33,328 nt of DNA from Anaerolineae bacterium (GTDB lineage: Bacteria; Chloroflexota; Anaerolineae; S016-19). Shown here in pieces: positions 9,091 to 29,491 of this stretch; positions within the stretch are counted from its first letter, which is position 1; each line of letters opens with the position of its first letter. A program made the translations under genes and the position numbers. A model generated the notes under the pieces. That model made no database searches. It was not told where the DNA came from and saw nothing but the letters and a program-made list of their open reading frames with translations. The DNA is taken from assembly GCA_015486235.1 (NCBI GenBank), contig WFSD01000023.1, forward strand, positions 1-33,328, read 5' to 3'.

Positions 9091-9522
9091 TCATGTGCCG
9101 GGTGGGGGAGGAGTGAACGGCTTGTCGGCCTCGCTCCACCGTTCCACCATGTGCCTCTGCACTACAAGCTCACCTTCCTCCGTCTCCAGCAGGAATGCCC
9201 CCAGGTCAAACCAACGCGCCACCCCTTCGAGAATCTCGCCTGTGGCCAGTTCGAAACGGGCTGGGAGTCCATCTGCCACGCGGTCCTGTAGGAAGAAAGT
9301 CAGCGCCCGCCGGGACCACCGGTGCCTCCAGATGAGCTCGTCCGCAGGTACGTCGTAGTAATCGGCCAACTTGTGCAGTGTCTCCTCGTCGCCGATGGGG
9401 CGGTATCGCTGTTCGATCTGTCGCAGGATCGGGATGGGGACCTTGCTTTTCGCGGAGACCTCCCTGAAGTCAGGCCCGCCCATAAGAGCGCGCAGGTATC
9501 GGATATAATCTCCGCTGCTCAT
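9091..9522 (-). CDS. HTH protein with a C-terminal Hfq/Sm-like domain (second gene of the pair)
   Basis: N-terminal HTH-like helices (SGDYIRYLRALMGGPDFREVSAKSKVPIPILRQIEQRYRPIGDEETLHKLADYYDVP), then FLQDRVADGLPARFELATGEILEGVARWFDLGAFLLETEEGELVVQRHMVERW. Start codon overlaps the upstream stop (ATGA). Confidence 0.7.
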   Translation of the reverse strand: MSSGDYIRYLRALMGGPDFREVSAKSKVPIPILRQIEQRYRPIGDEETLHKLADYYDVPADELIWRHRWSRRALTFFLQDRVADGLPARFELATGEILEGVARWFDLGAFLLETEEGELVVQRHMVERWSEADKPFTPPPPGT

Positions 9523-10286
9523 TTGACGCTGCCCCCTCTCCTGCTGTAGTAAGCTATCGCCAGCTTGTTCAGCGTGATCTCGTTCCCACCATCGTCCTCG
9601 ATGGTGAGGGTATAAGGGCTGAAGCCGATCAGAACCCCTTCTTGCACCGTTTCGTCGAACATGGAGATCCGAAGCCTGCACCTCTCATCCACGCACTTCT
9701 GCAGGTAGTTCATCTCGAACCTGTCCACTCCTTCGGGAAGATGCGCCCTTTTCATCCCTTGTTCTCGGGGGCCTTTCTTGCCCTTGTGCTTCTTGCACTG
9801 CTCTATGAGATCTTTGAGGATTCGGGCGGCTTCCAGCTGGTTCAGCTCCTCGAGCGGCTTCCCTACTTTGGCAACCAGGGCCTCCTTACCAGTGCCCAGG
9901 CACATCCCCAAGGAAAGCATTTGTTCGATCTGGGTTTCGCGCACCGGTGGGATGCTCTTGGGCTTCCGGGGCTTTTTTGCTGGTCTCCTGGAGCGCTTTT
10001 CCCGAGGCAGCTTCGCAGGAGGACGTTTTTCAGCGACGGGTTTCTTGGATTGTATCCTGGCCTCTGGGAACGGCCTGCTCTCGGGTTCTGGAGGCGGGTC
10101 TGATCTGTCTTTTATGTCCCACGGGTCCACGTAGAGTGCCCTGGCCAGCCTCTCCAGGTCTCTCGATAGAATAGTCCTGGTGCCGGATTCGTATTCCCTC
10201 AGCACATGTGCTGGTATGCCAGCCCTGGAAGCAAGCTGGCTCACAGACATCTTCCTCCGTTTTCGCAATTCCCACAGGTTGTACAT
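9519..10286 (-). CDS. XRE-family HTH, basic linker, helical domain and C-terminal Hfq/Sm-like domain fusion (first gene of the pair)
   Basis: MYNLWELRKRRKMSVSQLASRAGIPAHVLREYESGTRTILSRDLERLARALYV (HTH_3); KPLEELNQLEAARILKDL helical module; MNYLQKCVDERCRLRISMFDETVQEGVLIGFSPYTLTIEDDGGNEITLNKLAIAYYSR. SD GGAGGG upstream. Confidence 0.75.
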   Translation of the reverse strand: MYNLWELRKRRKMSVSQLASRAGIPAHVLREYESGTRTILSRDLERLARALYVDPWDIKDRSDPPPEPESRPFPEARIQSKKPVAEKRPPAKLPREKRSRRPAKKPRKPKSIPPVRETQIEQMLSLGMCLGTGKEALVAKVGKPLEELNQLEAARILKDLIEQCKKHKGKKGPREQGMKRAHLPEGVDRFEMNYLQKCVDERCRLRISMFDETVQEGVLIGFSPYTLTIEDDGGNEITLNKLAIAYYSRRGGSVK

Positions 10287-10334
10287 GACAAGCCCTCCGC
10301 AAGTTGTACTTATAAGGCATAGCCTGAGTGGCTA

Positions 10335-11711
10335 TCACGAACCCGAGAGGGATCGCTCCAGATAGCGTCCGCGCCCGGCATCGCCGACGAACTCCCCATC
10401 ACGGCAGACCGGTTTGCCTCTGGAGAGCACCACGCGAATCGTGCCTTGCACCCCCATCCCTTCGTAAGGCGTGTATCCACCTACGGTATGTAGTCTCCCG
10501 ACGCTGATTTGTCCCTTGTGGCGGGGATCGTACACCACCAAATCCGCATCACTCCCCGGGATGATTGTGCCTTTTCGTGGGAACATGCCGAAAATCCGGG
10601 CCGGGTTGGTGCTCATCACTTCCACCAGCCGTTCCAGGGAAATCCTGCCGGCTGCCACACCGTAGGTGTACATCAAAGGCAGGGACGTCTCCAGTCCAGG
10701 GATGCCGCCGGGAGTAGAGGGGAACTTCATCGTCGACACTTTCTGCTCCAGAGTGTAATCGCAGTGATCGGTCCCGACGGTGCTTATCTCCCCTGAGGCC
10801 AGCAGGCTCCAGAGTTTCGCCCCCTCTCTCCTGGGCCGGAGCGGCGGTTGGAGAATTACCCATTCCGGGTGCTCGCCCTCGTACAGGGAATCGTCCAGAA
10901 TCAGGTATTGGGGACATGTCTCGGATATCACGTTGATACCCTTGCGCCTGGCTTCTGCCAGGATCTCCGTGGTGCCTCCGGTGGAGTTGTGGACCACGTA
11001 CGCCCTGGCTCCTGCTTCCGCCGCCAGGAAAGCTACACGATGGGCGGCTTCCTGCTCCGCCAACATCGGCCGCGCCTGGGCGTGATATCGCAGGCTTGTC
11101 TTGCCCGCGGCTATCAGCCGTTCCGTCGCAGCACTCACCATGGCGTCGTTCTCTGCGTGGACCATGACCAGGATGCCGTGCTTCGCCGCAGCCTTGAACA
11201 CGCGGAGCAATCGGTCGTCGTCCATGTAGTAGTTCGGCCTGTAGGTGGTATATACCTTTGCCTCCGGAGCGCCCAGCCGGACGAGGGTCCTCAACTCATC
11301 CTCCTCGCCAGCGGGCAGGTCAGTTACCATGACATGGAGGCCGTAATCCACCGCCGCTTTGCCATCCACCTCGTTCCACCGGTTCTCCAGCGCTTGCTCC
11401 AACGTCTGGCCGGGGAACTGGGTGGCGAAATCGAGCACTGTAGTGACGCCGCCACAGGCCGCGGCTCTCGTTCCCACGCCCCAATCATCCTTGGTTTGGT
11501 AGATGCCGGTGTCGAGCTGGATGTGGACGTGGGGGTCCACCAGGCCAGGGAGCACCAGGCACCCGTCGGCGTCTATCACCTCGTCTACCTGGGACATTGG
11601 CAGCGCTTCGCCGATAGCCAGGATTTCCTCTCCATGGGTCATCACATCGCCGCGGAAGGTCCCCGCGGGTGTTACCACCAAACCGTTGCGAATCAATATT
11701 CTGTCGCTCAA
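10335..11711 (-). CDS. Dihydropyrimidinase/hydantoinase-family amidohydrolase
   Basis: VLPGLVDPHVHIQLDTG, AKVYTTYRPN (carbamylated Lys region), VMVHAEND, VVHNSTGGTTEIL, VGTDHCDY. Confidence 0.92.
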   Translation of the reverse strand: MSDRILIRNGLVVTPAGTFRGDVMTHGEEILAIGEALPMSQVDEVIDADGCLVLPGLVDPHVHIQLDTGIYQTKDDWGVGTRAAACGGVTTVLDFATQFPGQTLEQALENRWNEVDGKAAVDYGLHVMVTDLPAGEEDELRTLVRLGAPEAKVYTTYRPNYYMDDDRLLRVFKAAAKHGILVMVHAENDAMVSAATERLIAAGKTSLRYHAQARPMLAEQEAAHRVAFLAAEAGARAYVVHNSTGGTTEILAEARRKGINVISETCPQYLILDDSLYEGEHPEWVILQPPLRPRREGAKLWSLLASGEISTVGTDHCDYTLEQKVSTMKFPSTPGGIPGLETSLPLMYTYGVAAGRISLERLVEVMSTNPARIFGMFPRKGTIIPGSDADLVVYDPRHKGQISVGRLHTVGGYTPYEGMGVQGTIRVVLSRGKPVCRDGEFVGDAGRGRYLERSLSGS

Positions 11712-16985: not shown

Positions 16986-18365
16986 CTACCGTCCAGCGGG
17001 CTGCCATAGCAAAAAACGGCTGCCGACTTCCTCCTCCGGCTTCATCAGACCTATCACGGACTCCCGGTGCGTGCGCTGTTCGATTTGCGAGTTGTTTCTC
17101 TTCCCGAAGCTGGTGGGCATCATCCGACGATCCCTGTCCAGGCTCCTTTGGGCTATGCCTACCACGTCAAACCCTACAGACCTGGCTATCTCGGCGATTC
17201 CCGTATGAGTGTGGACATCCATCCCACGCATCACCGACGTCCCGACAACCATGACAGCGGGCTTGCCGGGTGAAAGAACCCGAAGCATCTCCCGCAACAC
17301 CTGCTCCATCTCGGTGAAATATTTCCAGAGGACTTTCGCTTTCTTGCGGTCCAGCTTCTGCAGCTCTGCCAGGACTTCTTCCACGGACTCAGGCATCTGG
17401 GCAGGGACGAAATCTTTCGTGCGCTCGGAGCCTATGTACGTGGCCCTGATCCGGCTCAGGTCGTCCACGGAGTGCCCAAACCACACCAGGGAGAACTTGT
17501 GTGCTCTCATGTAATCTATGGCGTTCGCGTAAGGCGGCGAGGTCACGATGAGGTCCACGGAACCATTTTTCAAAGGCAAGGCCCTGGCATCCCCCGTCAG
17601 TATCCATGCCTTCCCATCAGCGGGCAGTTCCGCTAGGCTCCTGATGTTCTTTTCGAGACGAATCCCGAACTGGCTTAGTGGGGATTTCGTTCTCTTGTTC
17701 AGGTCTCGGTGGGGCCTGGAATGCGATAAGTCCCTCGCGAGAGAGACACTGCCGGATTTGGCGATGATCGTGGCAGAGAAAGTGAGTTCGAAGAACCGCC
17801 TTTCCACCGGTTCCTCCACCTCCTCTATCGCCCTGGCGAGAGCCGCCAGTTCCTTTCGTGCACCGTCGGGGAACCAATATTCCACGAAACTCCTGGTCTT
17901 CTCGTCGAAATCGGACAGAGTGACGTGTTCCAGGAGCTGCCGCGCCCGGAAGAGGAGCTTCCTGCCAAGATATCGCAGCCTTCCCTCGTCTAGAGGACTG
18001 GTTTTGACGGAGGAAAGGCGCACTGCAAGGGGGTCGAGGTCTACGCCTATCCCTTTCCTGCCGAGCATTAAGGCTTCCACCACCGTCGTGCCTGAGCCAA
18101 CCATGGGGTCGAGAATCACGTCTCCGGCATCCGTTAGGGCCTGTATGAAAAGTCCTGGAAGCTGTGGGGGGAATTTGGCGGCAAAGGGGTGGAGCCTGTG
18201 GGACGCGTAGCCAGTCCGTGCTCCCTGGAAGTCCAGGTCTCTTTTCAGGAGCTCGACCAGAATGTCCCTGAGATTCGATTTCGCCGGGGAAGTCTTTCCG
18301 AGAAACCTCTTCTTCGTTTCAGGGAACAGTTTCAATTGTACCTGCGCCGCTCCGCTCACGCCCAC
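16986..18365 (-). CDS. DNA methyltransferase (TSPPY; N4-C or N6-A type), orphan in this window
   Basis: HPFAAKFPPQLPGLFI, DPMVGSGTTVVEALMLGRKGIGVDLDPLA (motif I), LIVTSPPYANAIDYMRAHKFSL (motif IV). Confidence 0.88.
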   Translation of the reverse strand: MGVSGAAQVQLKLFPETKKRFLGKTSPAKSNLRDILVELLKRDLDFQGARTGYASHRLHPFAAKFPPQLPGLFIQALTDAGDVILDPMVGSGTTVVEALMLGRKGIGVDLDPLAVRLSSVKTSPLDEGRLRYLGRKLLFRARQLLEHVTLSDFDEKTRSFVEYWFPDGARKELAALARAIEEVEEPVERRFFELTFSATIIAKSGSVSLARDLSHSRPHRDLNKRTKSPLSQFGIRLEKNIRSLAELPADGKAWILTGDARALPLKNGSVDLIVTSPPYANAIDYMRAHKFSLVWFGHSVDDLSRIRATYIGSERTKDFVPAQMPESVEEVLAELQKLDRKKAKVLWKYFTEMEQVLREMLRVLSPGKPAVMVVGTSVMRGMDVHTHTGIAEIARSVGFDVVGIAQRSLDRDRRMMPTSFGKRNNSQIEQRTHRESVIGLMKPEEEVGSRFLLWQPAGR

Positions 18366-20550: not shown

Positions 20551-21615
20551 TCACTTTCTTTGTAGGCCCTCGACCCTGGGCAGAAGCGCGTCCACGGTGC
20601 GTTTGACCAATGCCAGCGGTTCATGGCGATTGCCACAATTTCTGGCATCCGCTTCCACATCGATGTCGGAAGGGATCCCGGCGAAATTCGCTATCTGTAC
20701 GCCCCAGCCGAGCCCAAGCGTGGGGTGCACGAACCCTCCGCCACCCAGGAAGATCAGCTTCGTATGGGTACCACGGAGCAGTTCCGCCAGCACGCGGCTG
20801 GCGTGATCATAGCTCTTCAGGCTGTAGGAGAGATGGCTGACGATGCCGGAGCAGTGGCCATCCACACCCATCTGCAGAACCAGAACATCAGGCCTGTAAC
20901 TCTCCAAGAGCGCTGGCACCAACGCATCGAATGCGTAGATGAAATCGGCGTCCTTTGCGTCGGGTGGCATAGGTACGTTGAAATTGTAGCCTAGCCCATC
21001 CCCTTCGCCAGCCTCGTCCACGAACCCGCTGGCAAAAGGATACAAAGTTCGCGGATCCTGGTGGAAGGAAACTGTGAGTACATCGTTTCGGCGGTAGAAA
21101 GCACGCTGCGTGCCATCGCCGTGGTGAGCATCTATGTCCAACACCATCACTCGTCCCACACCTCGCTGCAGCATCAGGGTCACGATGATAGCGATGTCAT
21201 TGAAAATGCAAAACCCACGCCCTGTCTCGGCGAAGGCGTGGTGCCATCCGCCGCAGAGGTTCCCCGCCGCGGGGTAAGCGCCGTCCAGCACCAACTCCAT
21301 CGCTTTGATGCTCCCCCCGACGGAAATGGCTCCGGCCTCGTAGATACCTGGGAAGATCGGCGTGTCTGGCGTGATCGAGCCGCTGCCGATTTTGCTCAAG
21401 GCCTGTACCCGTTTCACATACTCCGTAGTGTGAAAGCTCGTAAGCTCCTCGAACGAGGCAGGCCTTGGGGACTCGATGGTGACTTTGCCCTCGCCCAGCA
21501 GGCCTTTCTCACGGAAAACTGCCATTGCGCGTTCGTATCTATCGCCGCGCATGGGGTGGCCCGGGCCGAAATCCAAGCGTCTGTACTCATCGGTGTACAC
21601 AAGAGCGAGCCCCAT
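20551..21615 (-). CDS. Histone deacetylase/acetoin utilisation superfamily protein with Tyr-to-Phe in the GGGGY motif
   Basis: GGWHHAF, VMVLDIDAHHGDGTQRAF, LQMGVDGH, FLGGGGF. Confidence 0.9.
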   Translation of the reverse strand: MGLALVYTDEYRRLDFGPGHPMRGDRYERAMAVFREKGLLGEGKVTIESPRPASFEELTSFHTTEYVKRVQALSKIGSGSITPDTPIFPGIYEAGAISVGGSIKAMELVLDGAYPAAGNLCGGWHHAFAETGRGFCIFNDIAIIVTLMLQRGVGRVMVLDIDAHHGDGTQRAFYRRNDVLTVSFHQDPRTLYPFASGFVDEAGEGDGLGYNFNVPMPPDAKDADFIYAFDALVPALLESYRPDVLVLQMGVDGHCSGIVSHLSYSLKSYDHASRVLAELLRGTHTKLIFLGGGGFVHPTLGLGWGVQIANFAGIPSDIDVEADARNCGNRHEPLALVKRTVDALLPRVEGLQRK

Positions 21616-26666: not shown

Positions 26667-28181
26667 ATGGAGAAACGCCAGAGCTGCAGGGACATCTGGG
26701 TACGAACGCTGGGTCGCTTGCAGATACAGCTTCCCAGGGAGACTTTCAACACATGGCTGAAAGACGCTCACCTCTTGAGTGAAGAAGATGGGCTGTTCGT
26801 AATCGGCGTGCCTGATGCCTACACGCAGAACTGGCTGGAAAAGCGCCTGCATAAGCAAATTCACCGTACTCTCCGTGAGGTGGCAAAACGGGAAGTGGAT
26901 ATCCGGTATGTGCTATCTACGCCGCAAGATCCTCCCTCTGAAGAATCGACAAAACCCATGCCATTGTGGTCGGAGGGAAATGTCCCCATTGCTGACGAAA
27001 ACACTTTTCACGACTCGTTCCGCGATATCATCATCGGAGAGTGTAACCGTCTGGCTTATGCTGTGTCCCTTTCCGTTACAGAGCACCTCCTCAAAAATCG
27101 TACTGCCAGCCCCTACAATCCTCTGGTACTCTATGGCGGTTCGGGGGTGGGAAAGACCCACCTGCTCCGGGCTATGTATCAGAGCGTATCTGCTCACGGG
27201 ATGCGTTCGCTCTACACTACCGTCGAGGAATTTACCAATCAGTTCATTTCCTCCATACGAGCTCAGACGACTGATAAGTTCAGGGAGAGATACAGGAGCC
27301 TGGACTTGCTCTTGATGGATGACATCCAATTTCTGACCGGCAAGGAGAACACTCTGGAAGAGTTCTTCCATACCATTGATACCCTGCAGTCAGCTGGGGC
27401 TCAGTTAGTCGTCGCTGGCGACAGACATCCCAACGAGATACCAGGGATTTCGGAGCGCCTGAGGTCTCGTCTGAACGGTGGACTTCCAGTAGAATTGCGT
27501 CCCCCGGATGCAAAAACTAAGAAAGAGTTGTTGATCAAAATGTCGGAGGAGAGAGGGGTTTATCTTCAGGAAGATGTGATTCACGCAATAGCGAGGAACA
27601 TCGTTGGAGGTGTCTGGGAGGTTCAGGGGGCGTTCAATCGTGTTGCTGCCTACGCGGAGTTCCTCCACAAGCCTATAACGGCGGGTGTGCTTGATCAAGT
27701 GCTCGCCCCGTTCCTCACGGCGGGCACTTCCGTCCGCCTTAGCCCTGATCGGGTGTTGGAGGCGGTGGCTTCGTTCTACGAAGTGCCAGAAAACGAGATG
27801 AAAGGTCAATCGAGAAAGCGATCGGTGGTGCAGGCGCGTCATGTGGCAATCTACCTTATGAGGGAAGATCTGGGGTTGAGCCTGGCGCAGATAGGAAAGA
27901 TCCTTGGCGGCAGGGATCACACGACTGTCAGATATGCCTACCGCAAGATCAAATCAACGGCAGAGACGAATCTGGCGCTGCGCAGGCACCTGAGCGACAT
28001 ACGTGATGCGCTGCGTGTTTCTGGCAAGCACAATGCCCCTACTTCCGGAGAGAGGGAGCGGACGGATGCCGTGGCTGAGGCGGAAGCGATAATGACGGTG
28101 GCAGGAGAAAGGAACGAGAGAACTACAGCCGTTGACGTCACTATGGCACCTCGCCTGGCTGTGAAGAGCAGGCTTGAGTAA
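26667..28181 (+). CDS. dnaA: Chromosomal replication initiator DnaA (or DnaA paralog)
   Basis: NPLVLYGGSGVGKTHLLRAM, LDLLLMDDIQFLTGKENTLEEFFHT, ERLRSRLNGGLPVELRPPD, LSLAQIGKILGGRDHTTVRYAYRKI. Confidence 0.93.
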   Translation: MEKRQSCRDIWVRTLGRLQIQLPRETFNTWLKDAHLLSEEDGLFVIGVPDAYTQNWLEKRLHKQIHRTLREVAKREVDIRYVLSTPQDPPSEESTKPMPLWSEGNVPIADENTFHDSFRDIIIGECNRLAYAVSLSVTEHLLKNRTASPYNPLVLYGGSGVGKTHLLRAMYQSVSAHGMRSLYTTVEEFTNQFISSIRAQTTDKFRERYRSLDLLLMDDIQFLTGKENTLEEFFHTIDTLQSAGAQLVVAGDRHPNEIPGISERLRSRLNGGLPVELRPPDAKTKKELLIKMSEERGVYLQEDVIHAIARNIVGGVWEVQGAFNRVAAYAEFLHKPITAGVLDQVLAPFLTAGTSVRLSPDRVLEAVASFYEVPENEMKGQSRKRSVVQARHVAIYLMREDLGLSLAQIGKILGGRDHTTVRYAYRKIKSTAETNLALRRHLSDIRDALRVSGKHNAPTSGERERTDAVAEAEAIMTVAGERNERTTAVDVTMAPRLAVKSRLE

Positions 28182-28495
28182 GGCGATCCTCGGATGTCGC
28201 CCCTGCCAGACCTGAATTCGCGTGGTGAATTACCGCTCGTGGCGACTGATCTCCTCTTGTCCTCATCCACCCCCAACTGTTGGAGTTGACGGACCAACGG
28301 ATAGGCGCATCAGAGGAATCCTGTGCGAGAGAACTTTCCGCCGCCCCGTTGTGCGGCATGCAACTGCTATTGGCGGCTACTCCGGTACAGGATTCGGCAT
28401 AAACTCCTACGCATAAAATCCCGTATCCGATGAGCATGGCTGGCGTCATCAAAAACGAAATCTTAAGAGTCGGCTACGGAAGGAGGTGTATTGCC

Positions 28496-29491
28496 ATGGT
28501 GAGCGTGAGACGTTGGAGGATGCCGATCCGTGTGCTAGCGGTGGTTTTGTTGCTGCTGGCCTCGATCTTCGCCCCATTGCAGGGTGTATCGTCTGTAGCT
28601 AATGCTTCCAGTTCGGTGCATGTCGTTAGATGGGGGGAAACCTTGACGAGCATAGCAGCCAGGTACGGGGTATCCGTCATGGCGCTGATGCAAGCCAATC
28701 ACCTCAGAAGCGCTAACTATGTTTACGTGGGGCAACGGCTCGTGATTCCGGGGGCGTCTGCGCCGTCCCAGGCCGGAGCGTATCACATCGTCCGGCGGGG
28801 CGACACCCTGTCATCCATTGGCGCGCGGTACGGGGTGAGCGTATCTGCTCTGATGTCCGCCAATGGTTTGCGAAGCCCTAATTTCATTTGGGTAGGCCAG
28901 TGGCTGAGGATACCCGGACGCAGCGGTTCGTCCCCTGCACATCAGCCTCGCCCGTCAGGTGGCTATTACACCGTCAGGCCGGGTGATACCCTTTCTTCTA
29001 TTGCCACCCGCTATGGGACGACTGTGTCGGCACTGATGAGAGTGAACGGAATCCGGTCGGCAAACCTGATCTACGTAGGCCAGAGGCTGAGTGTTTCTGG
29101 GAGTACCACTCCGCGGAATTCTTCTCCTCGTCCGTCTGGTAGCAAATGGATCAGCATAATTCTGCACCGGCAGATGCTGATTGCCTATCAGGGCAGCACT
29201 CCTGTTTTCGCAGCGACGGTAAGCACTGGCGTGGCAGCCCATCCTACAGTGACCGGCAGGTTCGCAATATACCTGAAAATCCCAATCCAGAGGATGGTTG
29301 GCCCCGGCTATAATCTGCCGAATGTGCCGTGGGATATGTATTTCTACACTAACTATGCCATCCATGGGGCGTACTGGCATAACAATTTTGGCCATCCCAT
29401 GAGCCATGGATGCGTGAACATGCGCATTCCGGAGGCAAAATGGTTGTATCGGTGGGCACCTATTGGCACGCCGGTGGTAGTCACTAACTGA
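28496..29491 (+). CDS. Secreted protein with three LysM repeats and an L,D-transpeptidase (YkuD) domain
   Basis: Three LysM units ([60 protein letters not shown]) and [30 protein letters not shown]. Confidence 0.94.

Follow-up and report, generated by a model that had tools for sequence, protein, structure and literature searches.

Two adjacent, overlapping genes in the 33,328-nucleotide contig that we analysed (WFSD01000023.1, from an Anaerolineae bacterium; hereafter the window) each encode a helix-turn-helix (HTH) domain and a C-terminal domain predicted to adopt the Hfq/Sm fold. We consider that the two products are probably paralogous subunits of one hetero-oligomeric, multivalent DNA-binding regulator or nucleoid protein. 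The pair recurs in many Chloroflexota that have no ordinary Hfq, which points to a regulator not described so far, in which DNA binding may be linked to the binding of a further nucleic acid. In the usual picture, Hfq is a stand-alone homohexameric RNA chaperone; relative to the open-access literature, what is new here is the architecture and the pairing of the Hfq/Sm domain.

Organization of the gene pair

Gene 1 (9519-10286, minus strand, 255 aa) encodes an HTH, a basic Pro/Lys/Arg-rich linker, a small helical module and an Hfq/Sm domain, and gene 2 (9091-9522, minus strand, 143 aa) encodes an HTH and an Hfq/Sm domain. The initial annotation described two minus-strand open reading frames sharing an ATGA overlap. 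This overlap (9519-9522, minus strand) is exact because the gene 1 stop codon TGA (9521-9519) and the gene 2 start codon ATG (9522-9520) interlock in the sequence. A mechanical ORF list opens the gene 2 frame further upstream at a GTG; the alignment identifies the ATG at 9522 as the conserved start. Elsewhere the four-base overlap is common, being retained in 14/17 and 19/23 pairs (two partly overlapping sets), and gene 1 and gene 2 were adjacent in every locus inspected. Exceptions to the overlap include L062/L075 (genome G027), where 1192 bases lie between the two genes, the only wide separation seen among the pairs inspected. The arrangement supports translational coupling of the genes, from which we infer matched synthesis of their products.

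The N-terminus of gene 1 (residues 1-62; 10101-10286, minus strand) is an XRE/Cro-type HTH by Pfam and the AF2 model. It exceeds the Pfam cut-offs for HTH_26 (6.5e-08), HTH_31 (3.3e-07) and HTH_3 (6.1e-07) and is modelled as four helices with a pLDDT of about 98. Residues 63-112 (9951-10100, minus strand) form a disordered basic linker, as judged by low pLDDT and by composition across orthologues; in the window it is Pro-rich with a net charge of +11 over 50 residues, and it is basic in most gene 1 members. In place of the basic linker, the gene 1 proteins of L058, L059 and L073 carry low-complexity SRYGGEPGP or GEGRSSYGG repeats, and the f128 gene 2 protein (L130) has a Gly/Arg/Pro-rich tail with RPRPPGGG repeats. 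All three repeats resemble those of RNA-binding or condensate-forming proteins, and low-complexity tails of the RG/YG type often bind nucleic acid or favour condensates. Residues 113-168 (9783-9950, minus strand) are modelled by AF2 as a three-helix module (pLDDT about 95; helices 117-130, 134-141 and 150-169), for which we found no confident Pfam or PDB match and a weak DUF3072 resemblance in two orthologues. One gene 1 orthologue (L077, 5114-5998, plus strand) contains this module twice in tandem. The Hfq/Sm domain, comprising a helix (185-200) and five beta strands, was assigned to residues 184-250 (9537-9737, minus strand) from the AF2 model, Foldseek and alignment.

Gene 2 begins with a divergent XRE-type HTH bearing a conserved E(Q/L/V)RYR motif (residues 1-67; 9322-9522, minus strand), which was assigned from Pfam matches of orthologues and from the AF2 model, where the region has five helices. 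Its Pfam match is weak and below the cut-off in the window copy; HTH_31 is matched by 19/24 orthologues, with a best value of 2.6e-07. The Hfq/Sm domain follows at residues 71-131 (9130-9312, minus strand), as placed by the model, Foldseek, profile searches and alignment. Weak HTH_25 matches also occur among members of the pair, and HTH domains can make protein contacts as well, for example in RodZ.

Both C-termini are predicted to adopt the Hfq/Sm fold

That each protein fuses an HTH to an Hfq/Sm domain was the central claim of the initial annotation, and it is borne out by Pfam HTH matches, by sub-threshold Hfq_1 matches at the segments originally quoted and by Hfq-fold models. With family alignments as input, AF2 gave models with a mean pLDDT of 86.0 for gene 1, in which the linker is disordered, and 91.7 for gene 2. 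Both models place an HTH before a helix plus five strands, and the HTH and Sm regions are confident. The best 50 listed Foldseek matches in the PDB were all Hfq for each protein, with TM-scores by target length of 0.70-0.92. Synechocystis Hfq (3hfo) was the top match for both, with an rmsd of 0.8 A over 60 columns for gene 1, and the gene 2 rmsd was as low as 1.4 A, against Caulobacter Hfq (6gwk). Structure prediction, which had been proposed as a check on the claim, returned an Sm fold for both C-termini and a non-Sm fold for neither.

Profile searches are in agreement. On sequence alone, the family profiles retrieved Hfq structures from the PDB, 6gwk for gene 2 (8.1e-05) and 3ahu for gene 1 (3.2e-04). 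At a loose limit of E 1, Hfq_1 (PF21979) matches 24/24 gene 2 relatives (best 1.1e-06) and Hfq matches 14/23 gene 1 relatives (best 1.5e-04). An NCBIfam model for cyanobacterial Hfq-related proteins matches gene 2 at E 7.3e-04. The gene 1 orthologues from family f96, outside the class, exceed the Pfam PF17209 cut-off, scoring 29.9, 29.7 and 27.2 against 27 bits. When E. coli Hfq was aligned, its YKHAIS motif fell at 'LNKLAIA' in gene 1 and 'VQRHMVE' in gene 2, exactly as first claimed. The two Sm domains are also homologous to each other (hhalign E 7.7e-08). Because of the AF2 and Foldseek results, the profile matches and the f96 orthologues over the Pfam Hfq cut-off, we accept the Hfq/Sm fold for both C-termini, a point that is settled as far as prediction allows.

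The resemblance might instead be fortuitous, the C-termini being other small beta barrels (SH3, AbrB or WYL) or the ORFs spurious. The window copies alone do match Hfq models weakly (E 0.0013 and 0.043, below curated cut-offs), the sub-threshold Hfq_1 matches covering residues 194-247 of gene 1 and 79-125 of gene 2 (E 0.0013 for the latter). However, the conservation of both frames across many families rules against this explanation, as do the high-confidence models with their uniformly Hfq matches among the best 50 listed and the orthologues that pass the Pfam cut-off, and we regard it as extremely improbable.

Distribution of the pair and of other Hfq proteins

The 18/100 sampled Anaerolineae genomes with gene 1 (E below 1e-20) are also the 18 with gene 2, and they include the host. 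The two genes are always paired, so a survey of the kind that the initial annotation proposed finds the pair conserved in related genomes. A gene 2 profile identified 42 strong carriers among 299 class genomes, a count that leaves out three further matches covering the HTH only. Outside the class, a phylum sample contained the pair in two families, with four f96 genomes and one f128 genome, gene 1 adjoining gene 2 each time. Gene 2 identity ranges from 38 to 61% across many families. The pair is patchily distributed, since the single sampled genome of the same genus is without it. In a GTDB-based contig scan that used one short peptide pattern, 23/23 relatives belonged to the Chloroflexota; these came from a scan seeded by the gene 2 alignment, an initial scan with gene 1 alone having given none. 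The pair had no match in phages or viral contigs that would indicate a mobile element. Assignment to a defence system was rejected, as PADLOC matches span the HTH only.

PF17209 has no match in the host genome (about 98% complete), where Hfq_1 matches gene 1 and gene 2 and nothing else. Likewise, every Hfq match in the 16 carriers checked falls inside the pair. Hfq exceeds the cut-off in 2/100 class genomes, neither of which has the pair. It could be argued from the lack of a separate Hfq in the host and in these carriers that the pair is a replacement sRNA chaperone in lineages that lost Hfq, in which case the HTH would be used for autoregulation or for protein contacts. Yet most class members lack both the pair and Hfq and so give no sign that a replacement is needed, and the rim arginine patch and distal residues of Hfq are lost from both proteins (see below). 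We consider this explanation quite unlikely; because Hfq and the pair are both uncommon in the class, their separate occurrence does not amount to evidence that one replaced the other.

Conservation of RNA-binding residues

We compared 23 gene 1 and 24 gene 2 proteins with E. coli Hfq by alignment, taking the roles of Hfq residues from published work (PMC11770335; PMC4337610). Gene 1 keeps F39 (22/23), F42 as Tyr (23/23), K56 (23/23) and A58 (23/23), and has Leu or Met at H57; the invariant Y225 and K241 of the window protein occupy the F42 and K56 positions. Gene 2 keeps D40, K56 as Arg and H57 (24/24 for each), with Gln at Y55 and Gly or Ala at F42; here the invariant residues are D106, at D40 of Hfq, and Q122-R123-H124, at Y55-K56-H57. 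In the f96 gene 2 the Arg is retained and the His is replaced by Ser. Neither protein keeps Q8, Q41 or Y55 of Hfq, and in the alignment the rim arginine patch (R16, R17 and R19) is conserved in neither and the distal-site residues Y25 and K31 are variable in both. The interface positions L12, I24, L26, V54 and I59 remain hydrophobic in both proteins. At V62, also a subunit-interface residue of Hfq, every gene 1 protein has Tyr and every gene 2 protein Trp. Net charge of the Sm domain is -1 to -8 in all gene 1 members but one (0) and near neutral in most gene 2 members.

Among the RNA sites of Hfq, only the proximal pore keeps some of its residues, and these are divided between gene 1 and gene 2. 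Loss of the rim and distal residues and the net acidic gene 1 Sm domain weaken the case for RNA binding, which may on these grounds be weak or even absent; the invariant or nearly invariant proximal-pore residues keep the case alive. Given the residue pattern and the net negative charge of the gene 1 Sm domain, the pair is unlikely to be an ordinary sRNA chaperone with three RNA-binding faces. A pore ligand is possible for the predicted Sm domains, and a composite site in a mixed ring would be consistent with, though it is not proved by, the way the two partners share out the pocket residues. The RNA tethering and hetero-ring envisaged in the initial annotation are therefore best described as plausible but unproven.

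Genomic context

Upstream of gene 1 in the window, at a distance of 48 bases, is the end of a gene (10335-11711) for an amidohydrolase of the dihydropyrimidinase type; next to gene 2 is a convergently oriented MarC-family gene. Of 43 loci, 13 from several families have scpB, which encodes an SMC condensin subunit, upstream of gene 1 in the same orientation and 5-172 bases away; in three more it is slightly further upstream. Two of the 43 are second copies of contigs already counted; neither is scpB-linked, and both were omitted from the gene 2 tree. In this tree the scpB-linked rows are confined to one half, to which the window also belongs, a pattern explicable by a single gain and several losses. 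The window pair itself has no linked scpB, and the host scpB is on another contig. About ten related loci, and L049 (7761-8345, minus strand), encode upstream of scpB a conserved membrane protein of ~190 aa without a Pfam match, which by eye resembles an AmaP-like anchor. Genes for tldD and/or pmbA flank the pair in six loci, on both sides in four; in L048, L067, L051 and L135 the pair is sandwiched by two TldD/PmbA-family metalloprotease genes.

The probable sharing of an operon with scpB, seen at 13 loci, raises the possibility of a purely architectural nucleoid protein, in which the Sm domains would only oligomerize and the HTHs and linkers would bridge DNA together with SMC-ScpAB and no RNA would be involved. 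Loss of the rim and distal RNA sites and the basic linker are in keeping with such a role. However, it leaves the invariant pore residues of both partners unexplained, the scpB linkage extends over part of the tree alone, and most of the class lacks the pair. We view this as a credible possibility, though not a probable one.

A perfect repeat, ATAGCC-N5-GGCTAT, lies at 10319-10335 and is unique in the genome without mismatch. It was rejected as an operator, as arms of equal length arose in 17/60 shuffles and most orthologues were no better than chance; inverted-repeat tests of the window and of orthologues identified no operator upstream of gene 1. In four related loci (L047, L066, L049 and L070), a palindrome-like CACGGTCKAACCGTG or CACGGTCGGATCGTG is found close to gene 1 or immediately upstream of it; these sequences are possible candidates for an operator or a hairpin.

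Other genes in the window were also recorded. The window contains dnaA (26667-28181, plus strand) and, after it, a 353-aa ORF (28430-29491) where dnaN is usually found, which places the window near the replication origin. We rejected origin proximity as a property of the pair: dnaA is ~16 kb away in the window but >1 Mb away in the long-contig carriers G031, G251 and G553. A histone-deacetylase-family protein (20551-21615, minus strand; PF00850, E 9.7e-76) is probably of the acetylpolyamine amidohydrolase or acetoin-utilisation type, and an ORF at 16986-18365 (minus strand) has a partial DNA N6/N4 methylase match (PF01555) of about 62 residues at the end of the profile.

A model for the pair

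The computed domains, folds, pairing, overlap, absence of other Hfq and residue pattern are the basis from which we infer DNA binding, hetero-assembly, ligand binding and a physiological role. In the model that we favour, translational coupling would supply the gene 1 and gene 2 proteins in matched amounts, and their Sm domains would assemble with each other into an alternating hetero-oligomer, perhaps a ring. The Sm scaffold would display several HTHs together with disordered basic linkers, and the resulting multivalent DNA-binding particle could act as a global transcription regulator or a nucleoid-associated protein. Through the residual proximal-pore residues, the particle might also bind single-stranded, probably U-rich, nucleic acid. 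In support of the model are the Hfq fold and sequence relationship of both proteins, their shared occurrence, the homology of the two Sm domains, the hydrophobic interface positions, the basic linkers, the RG/YG-type repeats of some members, the upstream scpB of 13 loci and the division of the pocket residues. Counting against it are the lost rim and distal sites and the acidic gene 1 Sm domain, the failure of inverted-repeat tests to identify an operator, an scpB linkage confined to half of the tree and not seen in the window, and the capacity of HTH domains for protein contacts.

A bolder version specifies an alternating gene 1/gene 2 hetero-Sm ring that would hold a U-rich strand in a composite pore, with stacking Tyr and Lys contributed by gene 1 and Arg and His by gene 2, and place about six HTHs on the chromosome as an RNA- or ssDNA-responsive chromatin regulator. 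We think it unlikely that all of these details apply. Were they to hold, a transcript or a damaged strand would be physically coupled to DNA sites by a complex whose genes, in some genomes, share an operon with that of the condensin subunit ScpB.

Comparison with known systems

Hfq is a small stand-alone homohexamer whose classic gene neighbours are miaA and hflX (PMC11607428). The pair shares with Hfq (classic and 'mobile'/cyanobacterial clades; PF17209, PF21979) the Sm fold, the Sm1/Sm2 pattern and the proximal Lys/Arg56 position. Unlike Hfq, it consists of two diverged paralogues with N-terminal HTH fusions, without the rim arginines or the distal residues, and has scpB and tldD/pmbA as neighbours. 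As far as consulted, a recent survey of Hfq built on profiles distinguishes classic from mobile clades, with no HTH fusion. The initial annotation knew of no described HTH-Hfq pair, and our search of the open-access literature likewise found no HTH-Hfq protein or pair. Gene 1 also resembles XRE/Cro-C1 regulators, its N-terminus passing family cut-offs (HTH_3, HTH_26 and HTH_31); it differs from them in carrying an Hfq/Sm domain beside the HTH and in being one member of a conserved pair with coupled genes.

By analogy, the nearest working parallel is PafBC, an HTH-WYL pair of actinobacteria. Conserved arginines in the beta4/beta5 loop of PafBC correspond to the Hfq proximal RNA site and are needed for function, this loop of the Sm fold serving a presumed nucleic-acid ligand (PMC6789036). 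The likeness, which is one of plan and not of family, lies in the paired HTH and Sm-fold proteins and in the basic beta4/beta5-loop residues. The pair might accordingly work as PafBC does, as a heterodimer without a ring that binds promoters only when the Sm domains sense an ssDNA or RNA ligand. PafB and PafC are likewise paired HTH proteins with an Hfq-like Sm fold (PMC6789036), and the beta4/beta5 loop is the most conserved Sm feature here (K in gene 1, QRH in gene 2). However, PafBC has WYL plus WCX, neither of which is among the Pfam families listed for members of the pair; these have an XRE-type HTH and an Hfq-type Sm domain, with both Sm domains matching Hfq. Membership of the WYL/PafBC family was rejected on the same absence of WYL, and the hydrophobic ring-interface positions suggest higher oligomers. 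A PafBC-like heterodimer therefore seems to us rather doubtful.

Under the favoured hetero-oligomeric model, diverged Hfq domains fixed to DNA-binding domains would constitute a bacterial hetero-Sm system, in genomes without an ordinary Hfq. The pair makes it testable whether bacterial Sm proteins form mixed complexes like the eukaryotic ones and whether a direct link between RNA and chromosome binding can exist. A precedent for Hfq acting on DNA and chromosome structure exists in E. coli, where Hfq has been described as nucleoid-associated (PMC6235962; PMC13234807). The C-terminal region of E. coli Hfq is discussed for DNA compaction, whereas DNA binding by the pair would use the HTHs and the basic linker.
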